Source: a candidate division WOR-3 bacterium
GTDB lineage: Bacteria > Hydrothermota > Tepidihabitantia > Tepidihabitantales > Tepidihabitantaceae
Assembly: GCA_039801085.1 (NCBI GenBank)
Contig: JBDRTY010000003.1
Location: 62,001-126,000, forward strand
Direction: 5' to 3'
Length of the DNA stretch: 64,000 nt
A program made the translations under genes and the position numbers. The notes under the pieces were generated by a model. That model was not told where the DNA came from and made no database searches. It was given only the letters and a program-made list of their open reading frames with translations. This document shows, one piece after another, positions 52,985 through 59,519 of the stretch. The first letter of the stretch is position 1; each line of letters begins with the position of its first letter.

Positions 52985-53944
52985 ATGTCTGCCCAACCGG
53001 AAATTCACCCAAGAACAGAGCCGGTGCTCGTCTATGGACCGGTCCCTTCGCGTCGACTTGGGCTTTCGCTCGGTATCAACCTTGTCATGCCCAAAACCTG
53101 CACCTTCAACTGCGTATACTGCCAGTGTGGCAGAACCACTTGCCTCACTGCTTACCGCAAATCGTTCTTCCCGGTAGAAAAGATTATTACCGCAGTGAAT
53201 TCGGCGTTAATGAAAAGCAAAGTTGACTATCTGACACTCTCAGGCAGTGGTGAACCAACACTGAACCGGGACATCGGTGAACTCATTTCCATCCTGAAAA
53301 AACGCTTCCAGATTCCGGTGGCAGTAATTACCAACAGCTCTCTCCTTTCCAGTCCGGTTGTCCGGGATGCGCTCTATCAGGCAGACCTCGTCATACCGAC
53401 CCTCGCCTGCGCCGACGAGAAAACTTTTCGCCGGGTCCACCGACCTCACTCCAAAATCAGACTCAAAAACATCATCCGGGGACTCAAAATCTTCCGGCAT
53501 CGCTATCATGGCAGCCTCTGGCTCGAAATAATGCTCGTCAGGGACTTAAATGACCAGCCTGAGCATCTGTTCCGCCTGCGCCGGATTGTTCATTATATCC
53601 AGCCTGACCGGGTCCACCTTAATACCGTTGTCCGGCCGCCTGTTGAAGCATCTGCCCTTCCCGTTCCTTATGACCACCTGCTCCAGCTCCAGATGCTCTT
53701 TGGTCCAGAAACCGATATCATCCCGTCATCGGTGAAAAAGCACCAGAAACAATTCCGGGGCAACCCGAAACAGGCGATTCTGGCGGTCGTTGCGAACCGA
53801 CCGGTAACGGGCACCGACCTTACTCAGGCACTCGGACTGCCAGCAGAAACCGTAGCCCATACCCTCGGACATCTGACGGCTGAAGGCATAGTCAGAAAAT
53901 TTAAATTCAAAGGCAAAACCTTTTTCACCATACACCGAAAATAA
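52985..53944 (+). CDS. Radical SAM protein (COG0731-like) with C-terminal winged helix
   Basis: The 319-residue protein has YGPVPSRRLGLSLGINL, then the cluster CTFNCVYC (CxxxCxxC) binding a SAM-cleaving [4Fe-4S] cluster, then LSGSGEPTLN. COG0731 proteins are related to TYW1. After the barrel comes a winged-helix-like domain (QAILAVVANRPVTGTDLTQALGLP). A ribosome-binding site AAGGGG precedes the ATG, 9 nt after the protease stop. The reaction is unknown. It converges with the micro-gene described below. Confidence 0.87.
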   Translation: MSAQPEIHPRTEPVLVYGPVPSRRLGLSLGINLVMPKTCTFNCVYCQCGRTTCLTAYRKSFFPVEKIITAVNSALMKSKVDYLTLSGSGEPTLNRDIGELISILKKRFQIPVAVITNSSLLSSPVVRDALYQADLVIPTLACADEKTFRRVHRPHSKIRLKNIIRGLKIFRHRYHGSLWLEIMLVRDLNDQPEHLFRLRRIVHYIQPDRVHLNTVVRPPVEASALPVPYDHLLQLQMLFGPETDIIPSSVKKHQKQFRGNPKQAILAVVANRPVTGTDLTQALGLPAETVAHTLGHLTAEGIVRKFKFKGKTFFTIHRK

Positions 53945-53945
53945 T

Positions 53946-53976
53946 TAAAAACCCGTCCGACTGAGGTCGGACGGGT
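53946..53976 (-). terminator. Intrinsic terminator of the micro-gene
   Basis: A perfect 11-bp stem (ACCCGTCCGAC and GTCGGACGGGT, loop TGAG on the plus strand) at 53951-53976 is followed on the minus strand by five T and an AT-rich tail. On the plus strand the next bases are CACTGCC, so it is directed against minus-strand transcription. It lies 19 nt after the stop codon of the micro-ORF. Confidence 0.85.
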
Positions 53977-53995
53977 CACTGCCTTTCAGCCGTGC

Positions 53996-54055
53996 CTAAT
54001 TCATAGGTGGCGCCGGCAGCGGCGGTGGAAGAATCGGGATAATCGGACCGTCCAT
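53996..54055 (-). CDS. 19-residue proline-rich peptide micro-gene
   Basis: Too short for usual ORF finding. On the minus strand ATG is preceded by AAAGGAGG (54067-54060) four bases upstream, and the frame reads MDGPIIPILPPPLPAPPMN, then TAG. Nine of 19 residues are proline, with no Cys, Ser or Thr. A sigma54-type promoter lies upstream and a strong terminator downstream, so the unit is a complete small gene. It is not recognised as any known peptide. Alternatives are a leader peptide, a small regulatory RNA with a fortuitous ORF, or a secreted/ribosome-acting peptide. The flanking radical SAM gene is convergent and not a typical peptide-modifying type. Confidence 0.6.
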   Translation of the reverse strand: MDGPIIPILPPPLPAPPMN

Positions 54056-54111
54056 TTTGCCTCCTTTATCTTTTAGAGCTTACTGATTTCTGCATTATCA
54101 TAATTATAAAT

Positions 54112-54127
54112 AGCAATTACAATGCCA
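54112..54127 (-). promoter_or_regulatory. Sigma54-type (-24/-12) promoter of the micro-gene
   Basis: On the minus strand TGGCATTGTAATTGCT has GG and GC elements separated by exactly 10 nt, as in the RpoN consensus TGGCAC-N5-TTGCW; only the C of TGGCAC is changed. The predicted start is near 54101, leaving about 45 nt of leader before the micro-ORF. The neighbouring gene encodes a sigma54 activator. Confidence 0.72.
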
Positions 54128-54284
54128 GTACAGGATATTTAGCATAAGTTATTAAAAATCAGATTATTAACAAAAACAAAAAAGAAATTATTACCAGCTG
54201 TAAAATACGCAAATGTCGCACCATGCTTGGATTTTTTATCTAACTATTTGAAAAATTGTAACTTGAAAAAACAGGGAAATGCGT
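54128..54284 (-). promoter_or_regulatory. Possible enhancer region with TTTTTCAA direct repeats
   Basis: Between the activator stop and the -24 box the DNA is AT-rich. Two direct repeats, TTGAAAAA on the plus strand at 54248-54255 and 54263-54270, are 15 nt apart and 150-165 bp upstream of the predicted start, a usual distance for activator binding sites. Their function is a guess. Confidence 0.35.
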
Positions 54285-57200
54285 CTAGATCCCGAACTCT
54301 TCGGGCTTAATCCGGTAACGTTTGATTAACCGCTGCGCGTGTCGTCTGGTGATAGAAAGCAGCTGGGCAGCACGTGTAATATTTCCACCAGTCTGTTCCA
54401 GTGCCTGAAGCAGCTGGTGTCTGGTCAGTGGTCCCCCTCGTGCACCGGTCTCAGAGGGCTTGAGGTGGATAAAAGTTTCCCCTACATCCTCAAGCGTTAT
54501 TCGCGGGTTCTGAGTCATAATTACTGCACGTTCAATTGTATTCTGAAGTTCCCGGACATTTCCGGGCCAAGAATATTGCAGGAATGCTTCAGCAACATCC
54601 CGTTCAAATCCGTTAATCTCCTTGTTCAGCCGCTGCGCACATATCCGGAGAAAATAATTTGCAAGTGGAATTATATCCTGAACCCTTTCCCGGAGTGGCG
54701 GCACATTTATCGTCACCACATTCATCCGGTAAAACAAATCCTGGCGGAATCTACCGGCGTTCACCTCATTAATCAGGTTTTTGTTCGTTGCGCAGATCAG
54801 CCGGACATCAACAAGCCGGGTCTGTGTTTCACCGAGCCGGCGGATAATTTTATCTTCCAGCACCTGCAGGAGTTTTGCCTGAATTGCCGGCGTCGTATTA
54901 GTAATTTCGTCAAGAAATATTGTGCCTCCATTGGCAGACTCAAAGATGCCGATTTTGTCCCGCACCGCACCGGTAAATGCACCCCGGATATGACCGAAGA
55001 GCTCGGACTCAAACAACGTCTCGGGCAGAGTTCCGCAGTCAACAGCAACAAATTTATTATCCTTTCTGCCACTGCGGGAATGAATCAGCCGCGCCAGCGC
55101 CCCCTTCCCGGTTCCGGTTTCGCCGGTAAGGAGCACGGTGCAATCGGTCGGAGCAATCTTATCAATCAGAGCGAGAACCGGACGGATGGCTGAAGATCTG
55201 CCGAGAAAAATACCGGTTGCCCGGTCCACTGGCAGGTCATCGCAGGTGAGCACGGTCTCCTGATACCACCGCCGGTATACCCGGGAGCGTTCAATGGTAG
55301 CAGCAATCAAATGTCCCACCGACTGGAGCAGATTCTGATCTTCCTCAGTGAAAAGATGTGTAGTCAACCGGGAATCCAGATAAATCGTGCCGATTACCCG
55401 CTCGCCTACTACCAGCGGTACACAGAGCAGAGACCGGATTTTATTCAAAATCACGCTGTTTGCCGAATTGAACCGCGGATCAGTCAGCGCATCAACGCTG
55501 ATCAGCGGTTCCCGGCGGCGGCGCACCTTGCGCAGCACTGAATGGGAAATTACCTCGGCGTCCAGAACTGTTGAATTTTCCACATCCCGCACTGCTACCG
55601 GCGTCAGCCGGTCCCGATGAAAGAAAAAGATAATCCCCCGCTCTGCCCGGGTGACAGAGAGCACCAGGTCAAGCACCAGGTTAAGAAAATCGTCCCGGTC
55701 CAGAGCTGAATTCATTAGCTCGCTTAACTGATAAAAAACCTTCAGATACTCATTACGCTGCCGGGCTTTCAGCTGAATCACGCCAAAAATCTGCTCGAGC
55801 GATGCCAGAGTCTGCTCCGCGCGCTCAAGCTCAATCTGAGTCCCGAGCAGCCGGAAAAGGGAAATTGCCTCCTCCAGATTCGCCCGCACCCATTCATAAT
55901 GTTCAGCCGGCATTCCCCTTAACTTTTTCGGCAGGGACAGGGTATCAGTGCAGAGCAGCTCCGCAGTTGCGAGCAGTGTAAGCCCGAGTTCATACCTGGC
56001 ATTAAACTGCCGGAGAATCTTAATACTTTCCTCAAACTGAGTGCGTGACCGATCTTTTCTGCCGGCAGCAGCATCACAGCGCGCCGCCAGCCGAAGCGCC
56101 CCAGCATACTCCAGCGATACCGGACGGTTTCGAAAAGCAGCAATCGCCAGCTGAGATTCAAAATCAGCCCGGGAGCCGGTTGACAGCCGGAACTGTCCGG
56201 CAAGCAGCCACACGAGTGACCGGAGTCTCCAATCCCGCACTTTTACTGCTGAGCGCATAGTCCGGATCAGCCATTCTTTGCTCAGCTCCAGCCTTTCCCG
56301 GCGCAACTCCATTTCTGCGTGGACAAATGAAACCAAAAACTCCTGTTCTGAATCTTGGGAATTCTCAGCTAGCCGCTGGGCTGTGGCGAGATAACGCTCA
56401 GCAGACTGGAAGTCGCCGCGGATCGAGCTGAGGCGGGCAGAATAGACAACCAGCTGTGCCCGGCCTGACTCGGAGATTCTTTCTCCAGCTGTCTGACTGA
56501 GTTTGAGCGCCCGCTGACAACAAACCTCAACCCGGTTCCATTCCCCCTGGTCAAAGTAAACATTAGCCAGCAGGAGATTAAGATTGAAAGCAGCATTGAT
56601 ATAACCAACACGTTCAGCATACTGTAGCGCTTCGTTAAAATATCGCTCCGCCCGCTCAAATTCTCCCTGCTCATAACTGATCACCCCCAAACCATGACAG
56701 GAACTTAGCAGGTAATAAACATTACCGGTCCGGCGCTGAATCCGTGCCGCCTCCTCGTAGAATTCCCCGGCCCGGTGCGTATCACCACGGCGCAGACAGA
56801 GCGTTGCCAGAAACTGTGTCACGACCGAAACCATGAACTGCTCACCGATTGATTTGAACACATCCAGCGACTGCTCTGCCAGCTGCAATGCCAGTATGTA
56901 ATCTGCTCTTGCACCGGCGAGCACCGCAAAGTAGTAAAGTACAAGTCCGTTCAGGTAATTAGCCTCCTTGGGATGTTCCCGTTTTAAAAACTCGGACTGC
57001 CGCAGCGCCCGGACGAGGTAGTCCTCAGCCAGCTCCACCTTGCCCGCAGCACAATATGACCAGCCCAGATCTGCAAGCAACCGCGCCGACTCCAAACCGG
57101 ATTTATCCCCCAGAAGTGCCAGCGCCTGATTTAAAAAAAGCAGCGCTTCCTGATGTTCCCCCAGTTTCTGATGCACGAGTCCGAGCCGGCGCAGAAAGCG

Positions 57201-59519
57201 GGCAAGAATCATACGATTCTCCCCGGTAAACTGGGCTGCCAGGCTCATTCCCTGCCGGTAACTGTCAATCGCTTCGTGATATCTGCCGGTTGCCTCGCGG
57301 AGTTCACCGACCCGCTCAATCAGATTAAACCGTTCAGTCGGAGTGACAAAATCGGAAGAAAGGTTCAGTGCACTTTCATAGAAAAGCCGTGCCTCATCAA
57401 ACAGCAGCCACTCCTGCGCCTTTTTACCGGCTGCGAGTGCATAGCGGTATGCCTGCTCGCGATCACCACTCTGAATCCACTGATGAGCAAGGTCAAAAAG
57501 AATCTTATCCTTTTTATCTGTATGCACCAGCTCCAGCGCCAGTGCTACCCGGCGGTGCAGTTCCCGCCGGCGCTCCTGCGGAATTCGTTCGGTGACCGCG
57601 GTCTCCAGCACTTTGCTGGAAAGAATCAGCGCTCCACGAACCTCTTCCGACTCATTGTCCCGTGAATAAAATGTCCTGAGCAATCCGAGTCCCTTCAGCC
57701 GATTGACCGCCTGAAACAGTGTCCGGTCCGGATAATTGAGCACCACCCGGAGAAATTCAATCGTAAACGGACCGGCGGTTATTGCCCCGACCTCCAGCAG
57801 TTCCCGTTCCTCCGGTGTCAGCACCTCAAGCCGGTGCCGCACCAGTTCCGCAACATTCTTGGGAATGACAAAACTTCTTAAAGAGTCTGGGGAATACCGC
57901 CAGTGTAACCCCTCGCGGAAAATCACCCCCTGCTCAATCATACTATAGATCACCTCGATCGTTGCTAGCGGATTACCGCCACCGAATTCATAAACCCAGT
58001 CAACCAGTTCGTCAACATTATCGTCACCACCAACGATTGAAGTTACCAGCTCACGAACCGCCTCACGATCCAGAGTATCCACATCCAGGTGATAACAATA
58101 CGGCCTTTCGCTCAGTTCGCTGACAAGATCCAGCAGCCTCTTTTCTCTTAGTCCGGTGATCACCAAAAGCAGCCTTTCCTGTTCTAGGCTCAATGCCAGA
58201 TAACGCACAAACTCCAGACTCAGTGGATCAAAAAGTTCAAAATCATCCACCAGCAGTACCAGACTGTGGGGCACCCGATGGGAATCGGATAGCGCCTTCA
58301 ACCGCCGGACCAGCTGTTCAAACAGCTGAAACTTGGACTCCTGGAAAAACTCCAAGCTAATACCTGTTTCTACCTCCTCACCTCGCCAGAGAAGGTTTAT
58401 CAGACTCTCAACGAGCGACTGGGTCCGGGCACCCAGTGCCACCGGTTCAAAGGCGATAACCGTTGCCTGCTCCAGCTGGGCAAGGAACTTGAACTCCCCC
58501 AAAAGCCGGCTTTTGCCTGCACCCCGTTCCCCGGAAATAAAAACCACGCCGGGTTTACCGATAGCAGCCTCTCCCAGCAGTTCCTTCAGACGCGCAATCA
58601 GCGGGCCTCTGCCGACAAAGGCCGGTGCCAGCAAGTTCCGCCTTATTACTGAAGGCTCAACGATTGTCTGCATTCGGAACGATTCTGGCACAAGCAGTCC
58701 TGCTGATACTAATTCTTCCAGCAAATGCTCCGCACTTGCCGGCCGCCGTCTGGAGTCCGGATTGAGCAGACGCAGTACGAGATTGTCCAGCGCTGCCGGG
58801 ACTGCGGGGTTGAATTTGCTCACCGGCTCAAATCCGGAATAATACTGCCGTCTCAGCCATTCCTCCAGCGAACCTCCGCTTGCCGGTCCAACCCCGGTCA
58901 GTATCTCATATAAAACCAGACCGAGAGAATACAAATCGGTTCTGCTGTCCGCCTCGCCACCCTTGAGCAGCTCCGGGGCAATGTAGCCCAGTGTACCACG
59001 CGGAGATGCTGAAGAAAAAGCCATACCCTCAACAAATCCCAGATCCAGCAGTTTCACTACCGGTTTTCCTTCATCATCATAAACAAGAATATTAGAGGGT
59101 TTGATATCACAGTGGACCAGCCCCTCGCGGTGAATTGCATCCAATGCGGAAAGCAGTTGAATCAGCACCTCAAGCAGTGCCGGCTGGTAACCCCGGAAAA
59201 AACGGGTGATCGGCACTCCGGGAACAAACTCCATGGTGAAAAATGGGGAGTTGTCGATCGCTAGGCCGTAATCAAACACTCGGACGATATTGGGATGCGC
59301 CAGCTGCGAAAGATAAAAAAATTCCCGACTGAGTCTTAGGCCCGCTTCCCGGGACGCATTTTTCTGTAAAACCTTTAATGCAACAATCCGGCGTCCCAGC
59401 CGGTCCTTGACTTTATAAACTTCATTAAACTCACTTCTCCCGAGCAGCTCTAACGGTTCATAGCGCTCGTTAAGCTGCCGCAGAACATTGATATTCTCCT
59501 GCCCATCAAACCCCGTCAT
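54285..59519 (-). CDS. Ser/Thr kinase-AAA-TPR-GAF-sigma54 activator fusion
   Basis: This 1744-residue protein joins a whole signalling pathway. It has a kinase domain with Lys49, HCDIKPSN (136-143), DLG (159-161) and APE (181-183), but a degenerate glycine loop. An AAA-type NTPase follows (GERGAGKS, 330-337), then about 500 residues of TPR repeats and a GAF domain (roughly 1255-1415). A sigma54 AAA domain has GETGTGKG (1466-1473) and GAFTGA (1513-1518), which contacts sigma54. A Fis-type HTH is C-terminal. The RFRQDLFYR arginine-finger region is present. The protein probably senses a ligand or stress and drives sigma54 promoters. A sigma54-type promoter lies just downstream on the same strand. 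Confidence 0.93.
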   Translation of the reverse strand: MTGFDGQENINVLRQLNERYEPLELLGRSEFNEVYKVKDRLGRRIVALKVLQKNASREAGLRLSREFFYLSQLAHPNIVRVFDYGLAIDNSPFFTMEFVPGVPITRFFRGYQPALLEVLIQLLSALDAIHREGLVHCDIKPSNILVYDDEGKPVVKLLDLGFVEGMAFSSASPRGTLGYIAPELLKGGEADSRTDLYSLGLVLYEILTGVGPASGGSLEEWLRRQYYSGFEPVSKFNPAVPAALDNLVLRLLNPDSRRRPASAEHLLEELVSAGLLVPESFRMQTIVEPSVIRRNLLAPAFVGRGPLIARLKELLGEAAIGKPGVVFISGERGAGKSRLLGEFKFLAQLEQATVIAFEPVALGARTQSLVESLINLLWRGEEVETGISLEFFQESKFQLFEQLVRRLKALSDSHRVPHSLVLLVDDFELFDPLSLEFVRYLALSLEQERLLLVITGLREKRLLDLVSELSERPYCYHLDVDTLDREAVRELVTSIVGGDDNVDELVDWVYEFGGGNPLATIEVIYSMIEQGVIFREGLHWRYSPDSLRSFVIPKNVAELVRHRLEVLTPEERELLEVGAITAGPFTIEFLRVVLNYPDRTLFQAVNRLKGLGLLRTFYSRDNESEEVRGALILSSKVLETAVTERIPQERRRELHRRVALALELVHTDKKDKILFDLAHQWIQSGDREQAYRYALAAGKKAQEWLLFDEARLFYESALNLSSDFVTPTERFNLIERVGELREATGRYHEAIDSYRQGMSLAAQFTGENRMILARFLRRLGLVHQKLGEHQEALLFLNQALALLGDKSGLESARLLADLGWSYCAAGKVELAEDYLVRALRQSEFLKREHPKEANYLNGLVLYYFAVLAGARADYILALQLAEQSLDVFKSIGEQFMVSVVTQFLATLCLRRGDTHRAGEFYEEAARIQRRTGNVYYLLSSCHGLGVISYEQGEFERAERYFNEALQYAERVGYINAAFNLNLLLANVYFDQGEWNRVEVCCQRALKLSQTAGERISESGRAQLVVYSARLSSIRGDFQSAERYLATAQRLAENSQDSEQEFLVSFVHAEMELRRERLELSKEWLIRTMRSAVKVRDWRLRSLVWLLAGQFRLSTGSRADFESQLAIAAFRNRPVSLEYAGALRLAARCDAAAGRKDRSRTQFEESIKILRQFNARYELGLTLLATAELLCTDTLSLPKKLRGMPAEHYEWVRANLEEAISLFRLLGTQIELERAEQTLASLEQIFGVIQLKARQRNEYLKVFYQLSELMNSALDRDDFLNLVLDLVLSVTRAERGIIFFFHRDRLTPVAVRDVENSTVLDAEVISHSVLRKVRRRREPLISVDALTDPRFNSANSVILNKIRSLLCVPLVVGERVIGTIYLDSRLTTHLFTEEDQNLLQSVGHLIAATIERSRVYRRWYQETVLTCDDLPVDRATGIFLGRSSAIRPVLALIDKIAPTDCTVLLTGETGTGKGALARLIHSRSGRKDNKFVAVDCGTLPETLFESELFGHIRGAFTGAVRDKIGIFESANGGTIFLDEITNTTPAIQAKLLQVLEDKIIRRLGETQTRLVDVRLICATNKNLINEVNAGRFRQDLFYRMNVVTINVPPLRERVQDIIPLANYFLRICAQRLNKEINGFERDVAEAFLQYSWPGNVRELQNTIERAVIMTQNPRITLEDVGETFIHLKPSETGARGGPLTRHQLLQALEQTGGNITRAAQLLSITRRHAQRLIKRYRIKPEEFGI

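Follow-up and report, generated by a model that had tools for sequence, protein, structure and literature searches.

Receptor-propeptide pairs of the RRNPP(A) type (PlcR-PapR, Rap-Phr, ComR-ComS) have been described in Firmicutes (PMC10075063, PMC9765709), and binding of proline-rich peptides in the PPII form has been described for a TPR fold (PMC12433258). Here we describe a locus in a 64,000-nucleotide stretch of DNA from a candidate division WOR-3 bacterium (we call the whole stretch analysed the window) where a micro-gene for a 19-residue proline-rich peptide lies right behind the gene of a TPR-bearing sigma54 activator. The two look like an undescribed regulator-plus-peptide circuit of a little-studied bacterial phylum; searching the literature for sigma54 together with a TPR-sensed peptide returned nothing relevant.

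The elements listed by a first-pass annotation of this locus (sigma54 site, Shine-Dalgarno, ORF, hairpin and T-tract) are all present on the minus strand and were confirmed to the base. The -24/-12 promoter TGGCATTGTAATTGCT (54127-54112) has exactly the claimed 10-nt spacing (GG-N10-GC). It is followed by the Shine-Dalgarno site AAAGGAGG (54067-54060), an AGGAGG-type site also found in relatives, and by an ORF of 19 codons running from ATG to TAG (54055-53996), whose frame is conserved and which encodes MDGPIIPILPPPLPAPPMN. The intrinsic terminator (53976-53947) is a perfect 11-bp hairpin, ACCCGTCCGAC-CTCA-GTCGGACGGGT, followed by TTTTT, with the T-tract in the minus-strand direction only. Between the predicted transcription start (about 54101) and the ATG there is an in-frame stop and no start codon, so the window ORF is truly leaderless. 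Downstream, the terminator is followed by a convergent radical SAM gene (52985-53944) and thus the peptide alone is expected on the transcript. A RiPP reading that would involve this neighbour was rejected because the gene is convergent and outside the peptide-gene transcript.

The same annotation held that each element alone is weak. This is true of the promoter, which taken alone is a chance-level match: genome-wide we found 15 exact matches to the promoter pattern with the right spacing compared to 20 with the N7 control (one base too long), so the bare sigma54 consensus is not beyond chance. The combination of elements, unlike the promoter alone, exceeds chance: Shine-Dalgarno, ATG and PPPxP come together at a single place in the genome (1.9 Mb) and nowhere in the reversed control. 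We consider it very likely that the gene is real and under sigma54 control, taken jointly, in the absence of transcript data and with the start near 54101 being a prediction.

In a sample of 147 genomes of the phylum, the activator was found throughout one class (65 species) and in a small number of others. The order of kinase-STAND/TPR-GAF-sigma54 activator, sigma54 promoter, Shine-Dalgarno site and proline-tailed short ORF is present in 34 of the 57 readable loci. This count follows a strict rule, which asks for a short ORF downstream of the activator whose tail is rich in proline, and leaves out related or possibly related forms in G004, G049, G057, G146, G074 and G076. Sequences drawn from a first-order Markov model of each locus gave 0.1 such loci on average and never more than 2. 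The micro-gene was absent behind all 80 unrelated sigma54 activators of the negative set, which were the generic activators returned by a scan of public-genome contigs. These controls exclude chance. Fourteen leaderless orthologues, counting that of the window, and 20 forms with a precursor occupy the same place, and in one genome (G051) two paralogous activators each have their own peptide.

Six aligned genomes retain the promoter TGGCA-N6-TTGC, with TGGCA and ATTGC invariant, as well as the start region; most proline codons are kept at positions one and two and differ at position three. Four leaderless pairs show about 26 synonymous changes over 59 sites compared to 20 nonsynonymous changes over 148 sites (p=5e-6), and the precursor pairs show a synonymous bias as well (p=3e-10). 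GC hairpins with T-runs follow the ORF in G003, G009, G013, G019, G022 and G024, with unrelated sequences; read by eye, the terminator hairpins are kept between clades although their sequences are unrelated. Flanked by a sigma54 promoter and a terminator and lying right behind the activator, the micro-gene is conserved and under coding selection. The refutation test set by the first-pass annotation was passed, since relatives with this locus conserve the reading frame, and the synonymous-substitution check that it proposed was run with the biased outcome given above. Two of its claims need amending: the gene it called autonomous is likely the local target of the adjoining upstream activator, and the product it called unlike any known peptide belongs to a family of proline-tailed peptides.

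Leaderless peptides of 16-21 aa, usually with PPxx at the end, characterise the window's family and one sister family. Examples are MDGPIIPILPPPLPAPPMN, MDGPIIPILPPPRPAPPMD and MDGPFAPIYPPPIPAPPTA in g1, MDAPIVPILPPPRPAPPVK, MDGIVPILPPPRPAPPVK and MDGWARPLPPPAPAPPQV in g2, MDGYPIPPKPGPLPDPPSQG among those of g4 and g5, and MFGVFVPPPPLPCPPK and similar peptides in family f3; G017 has two tandem peptide ORFs. Nearly all of the 14 leaderless species have an upstream in-frame stop and no usable start, which rules out Sec export of the peptide there. In most mature forms compared, the chain ends exactly two residues after the last PP. The net charge is -1 for the window peptide and ranges from -6 to +2 across the family, mostly near zero or negative. 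Most members contain PPP, which is absent in G006, G017, G018, G004 and G019.

In other families the peptide forms the tail of a longer, secreted-looking precursor. In f6 and f9, proteins of about 60-70 aa in the same place have a hydrophobic N-terminus, a site like AYA/DSDTV and tails such as SVPNMPPPPPID, giving the pattern AYA/DSDTV...PPPPID, while the f8 precursors are longer and end in PPPPPQV. Two species have four tandem peptide copies per precursor. The secreted-looking protein of G018 carries its copies as VYAD-PVDGIPHPPKPVPPTQ, LFAD-, SYAD- and SYAD-, the repeat unit being (V)DGIPHPPKPVPPTQ and the units being separated by [YF]AD; the G004 precursor has four GG(T/K)FPP(T/A)PGPNG repeats. 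The bare window peptide resembles one precursor repeat unit (DG...PP.P..PP). Signal-peptide and cleavage assignments were made by eye, without a predictor. No credible Pfam or NCBIfam family was found for the precursors, and phage records gave no match to the one precursor searched. Behind the peptide gene of f6 and f9 we also observed a second small gene of about 64 aa, LYEVKMLDGTRYKGEIAY...LSIRELGW (L059:6396 onward, L061, L077, L084-L086), likewise without a Pfam or NCBIfam match, whose product could perhaps be an Sm/SH3-like barrel.

The activator gene (54285-59519, minus strand) adjoins the micro-gene directly upstream on the same strand and encodes 1744 aa with the domain order Ser/Thr kinase, AAA_16 (STAND), TPR, GAF, sigma54 AAA+ (GAFTGA) and Fis HTH; orthologues are found across the class. 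Pfam matches include PF00158 (2e-66) and PF02954 (1e-6), the GAFTGA motif is present, and rpoN, the gene for sigma54, is found in the window genome (PF04552, 3.7e-47). The TPR part (residues about 560-1262) is matched by TPR_12 and TPR_MalT and was modelled as a long TPR superhelix (pLDDT 88). Nearest to it by both sequence and fold are peptide-binding TPRs (LGN/Pins), with a STAND-TPR protein further down the list; the Foldseek TM-scores are mostly modest.

Only degenerate half-sites for the activator are found in the window. One possible site, GGTGCGACA (54222-54214, minus strand), corresponds to a TGCGACA conserved in G001, G003, G009 and G013. The other, ATCTAGACGCATTT (54277-54290, minus strand), is weak and overlaps the activator stop codon, and rests on alignment with G001 (TAGTCGCA) and on the TGCGACA/TGTCGCA motif in relatives. 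Many relatives have clear palindromes between activator and promoter, clade-specific and often in two copies about 70 bp apart: TGTGTCATTTTGACACA in f6, TGCGACA...TGTCGCA in several families and GTGTAACAAAATGTTACAC in G146.

At least two paralogous groups can be told apart among the activator relatives of f6 and f9. Some of these drive HD-GYP or larger secreted proteins instead of the peptide, which is thus the most frequent local target without being the only one. Behind the sigma54 site of the paralogous kinase-sigma54 activators L060, L062 and L083 of f9, an HD-GYP-like protein takes the place of the peptide.

Two further sites were observed in the same genome as the window. At L027 (G000:C1:455195, plus strand) the C-terminus of another sigma54 activator is followed by TGAGACA repeats, the sigma54 site TGGCACATTTTTTGCA and a protein of 66 aa (MFNRGVERVMQILLVGVFG...) that seems to have a single membrane segment, forming a second local circuit. 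At L026 (G000:C1:292278, minus strand) the sigma54 site TGGCATATTTTTTGCT, with ATGCGACA just upstream, precedes a strong terminator by only about 90 nt; this may be a small RNA or a 7-codon ORF, and it adjoins a convergent gene that looks PhoU-like.

The best explanation overall is that the adjoining activator has the sigma54-dependent micro-gene as its dedicated local target, with the peptide feeding back as a TPR ligand. Lacking binding, transcript or peptide data, we regard this explanation as no more likely to be right than wrong, and on the feedback-ligand role itself, for which the same data are lacking, we lean slightly to the negative. We infer that the Fis domain would bind the half-sites just upstream of the promoter, that the kinase/STAND/TPR/GAF part would sense a state and that the AAA+ domain would open the sigma54 promoter, switching on the peptide gene. 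With less assurance, the proline-rich peptide would be the cognate ligand, bound to the TPR superhelix in an extended, PPII-like conformation and feeding back on the activator. A leaderless peptide, as in the window, would act inside the cell, while in relatives it would be secreted, processed and sometimes multi-copy.

Several observations favour this circuit: the gene order at 34 of 57 loci and at none of the 80 control activators, the synonymous bias, rpoN, the clade palindromes, the G051 paralogue pairs, the multi-copy precursors, the usual PPxx end, the TPR superhelix with its likeness to peptide-binding TPRs, and the precedent of a TPR fold binding proline-rich peptides. Against it stand the related activators with other targets, the degenerate half-sites of the window, the modest TM-scores and the missing importer. 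Concerning the latter, oligopeptide-binding proteins of the SBP_bac_5 type were found in neither the window genome nor any f1-f5, f8 or f10 genome searched, and are present in every f6, f7 and f9 genome. Uptake of released peptide by the usual route is thus unlikely in the window genome, f1-f5 and f8, which counts against classical quorum sensing in this organism, and the window peptide more likely acts inside the producing cell. The f8 family, G018 and G004 have secreted forms yet lack this importer.

A bolder hypothesis is also possible, though less likely: the peptide signalling might be a system in its own right, found widely in a single little-studied phylum. The kinase-STAND-TPR-GAF-sigma54 regulator might sense proline-rich peptides that are leaderless ligands inside the cell, secreted as single-copy tails or secreted as four-copy polyproteins. 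These three forms would imply that the same peptide moved between private feedback and cell-cell signalling.

Alternatively, the peptide may be an output and not a ligand, that is, a bioactive product (for example toxic, matrix-binding or signalling) switched on by the activator upon another signal. This remains possible. It is supported by the secreted and repeat-containing precursors, by the larger secreted or HD-GYP proteins that some related activators control and by the absence of an OppA-type importer from most families. The leaderless state in 14 species argues against it, and the mostly near-zero or negative net charge counts against a cationic antimicrobial.

We consider it unlikely that the ORF is a polyproline translation-arrest or EF-P-sensing element, in which the ribosome would stall on the proline run and gate something in cis. 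PPP, present in most members, stalls ribosomes (PMC4176338), and those forms that combine a signal sequence, a stall-like tail and a further gene downstream recall Sec-related arrest peptides (PMC10987492). However, behind the window ORF there is only a terminator and a convergent gene, with no downstream gene to be regulated in cis, and five genomes lack PPP, as listed above. A chain of 19 residues is also too short to leave the ribosome tunnel. Least of all do we favour a sigma54-driven small RNA with an incidental ORF: the transcript is short with a strong terminator and a folding z of -2.3, but change is synonymous-biased, amino acids are conserved more than nucleotides, the terminator sequences of the clades are unrelated and no Rfam family scored above threshold.

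What began as a single micro-ORF thereby becomes a family of about 40 regulator-peptide pairs that is open to experiment, in a phylum where few experiments have been done. It also points to a gene class missed by annotation, sigma54 targets of fewer than 25 codons. Should the feedback or signal role prove true, sigma54 and a eukaryotic-type kinase would form the basis of a peptide-sensing circuit outside Firmicutes, with naturally occurring intermediates that link leaderless, single-copy and multi-copy peptides.

Compared with known systems, the activator agrees with sigma54 enhancer-binding proteins in having AAA+, GAFTGA and Fis, rpoN in the genome and a GG-N10-GC promoter at a conserved place; of paired upstream activator sites, many relatives show clear palindromes and the window only degenerate half-sites. 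It shares with the one-component members the AAA+ domain with GAFTGA, the Fis HTH, the -24/-12 target and, in relatives, upstream palindromes; it differs in its N-terminal kinase, STAND and TPR parts and in having a peptide micro-gene as conserved target. Arrest peptides related to Sec/YidC (PMC10987492) are likewise short ORFs, some with a signal sequence and proline-containing C-terminal tails, but the window clade has neither a downstream gene to regulate nor a conserved arrest motif. Proline-rich antimicrobial peptides are short and proline-rich, as here, whereas the window peptide is not cationic (net -1) and has no conserved PrAMP motif. Weighed rival by rival, the evidence leaves the arrest-peptide, antimicrobial and small-RNA readings weaker than the circuit.

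Like RRNPP pairs, the system joins an intracellular regulator that bears a TPR domain to a tiny neighbouring peptide gene (here 19 aa and directly downstream, within the criterion of 10-100 aa). Secreted and multi-copy propeptides and Sec leaders also occur in RRNPP pairs (PMC9765709), whose regulator can activate the peptide gene. In contrast, RRNPP receptors are about 250-500 aa (PMC10075063), compared to a 1744-aa kinase-STAND-TPR-GAF-sigma54 activator that is not of the Firmicutes type, and the promoter here is sigma54-dependent with proline-rich peptides of 16-21 aa. RRNPP propeptides use a Sec leader (or PptAB) and an oligopeptide permease for re-import, while in the window no leader is possible, leader-like sequences being found in other families, and the genome has no SBP_bac_5. 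As it departs from RRNPP in the defining features of receptor size, leader and importer, the window system may work like such a pair without being one.
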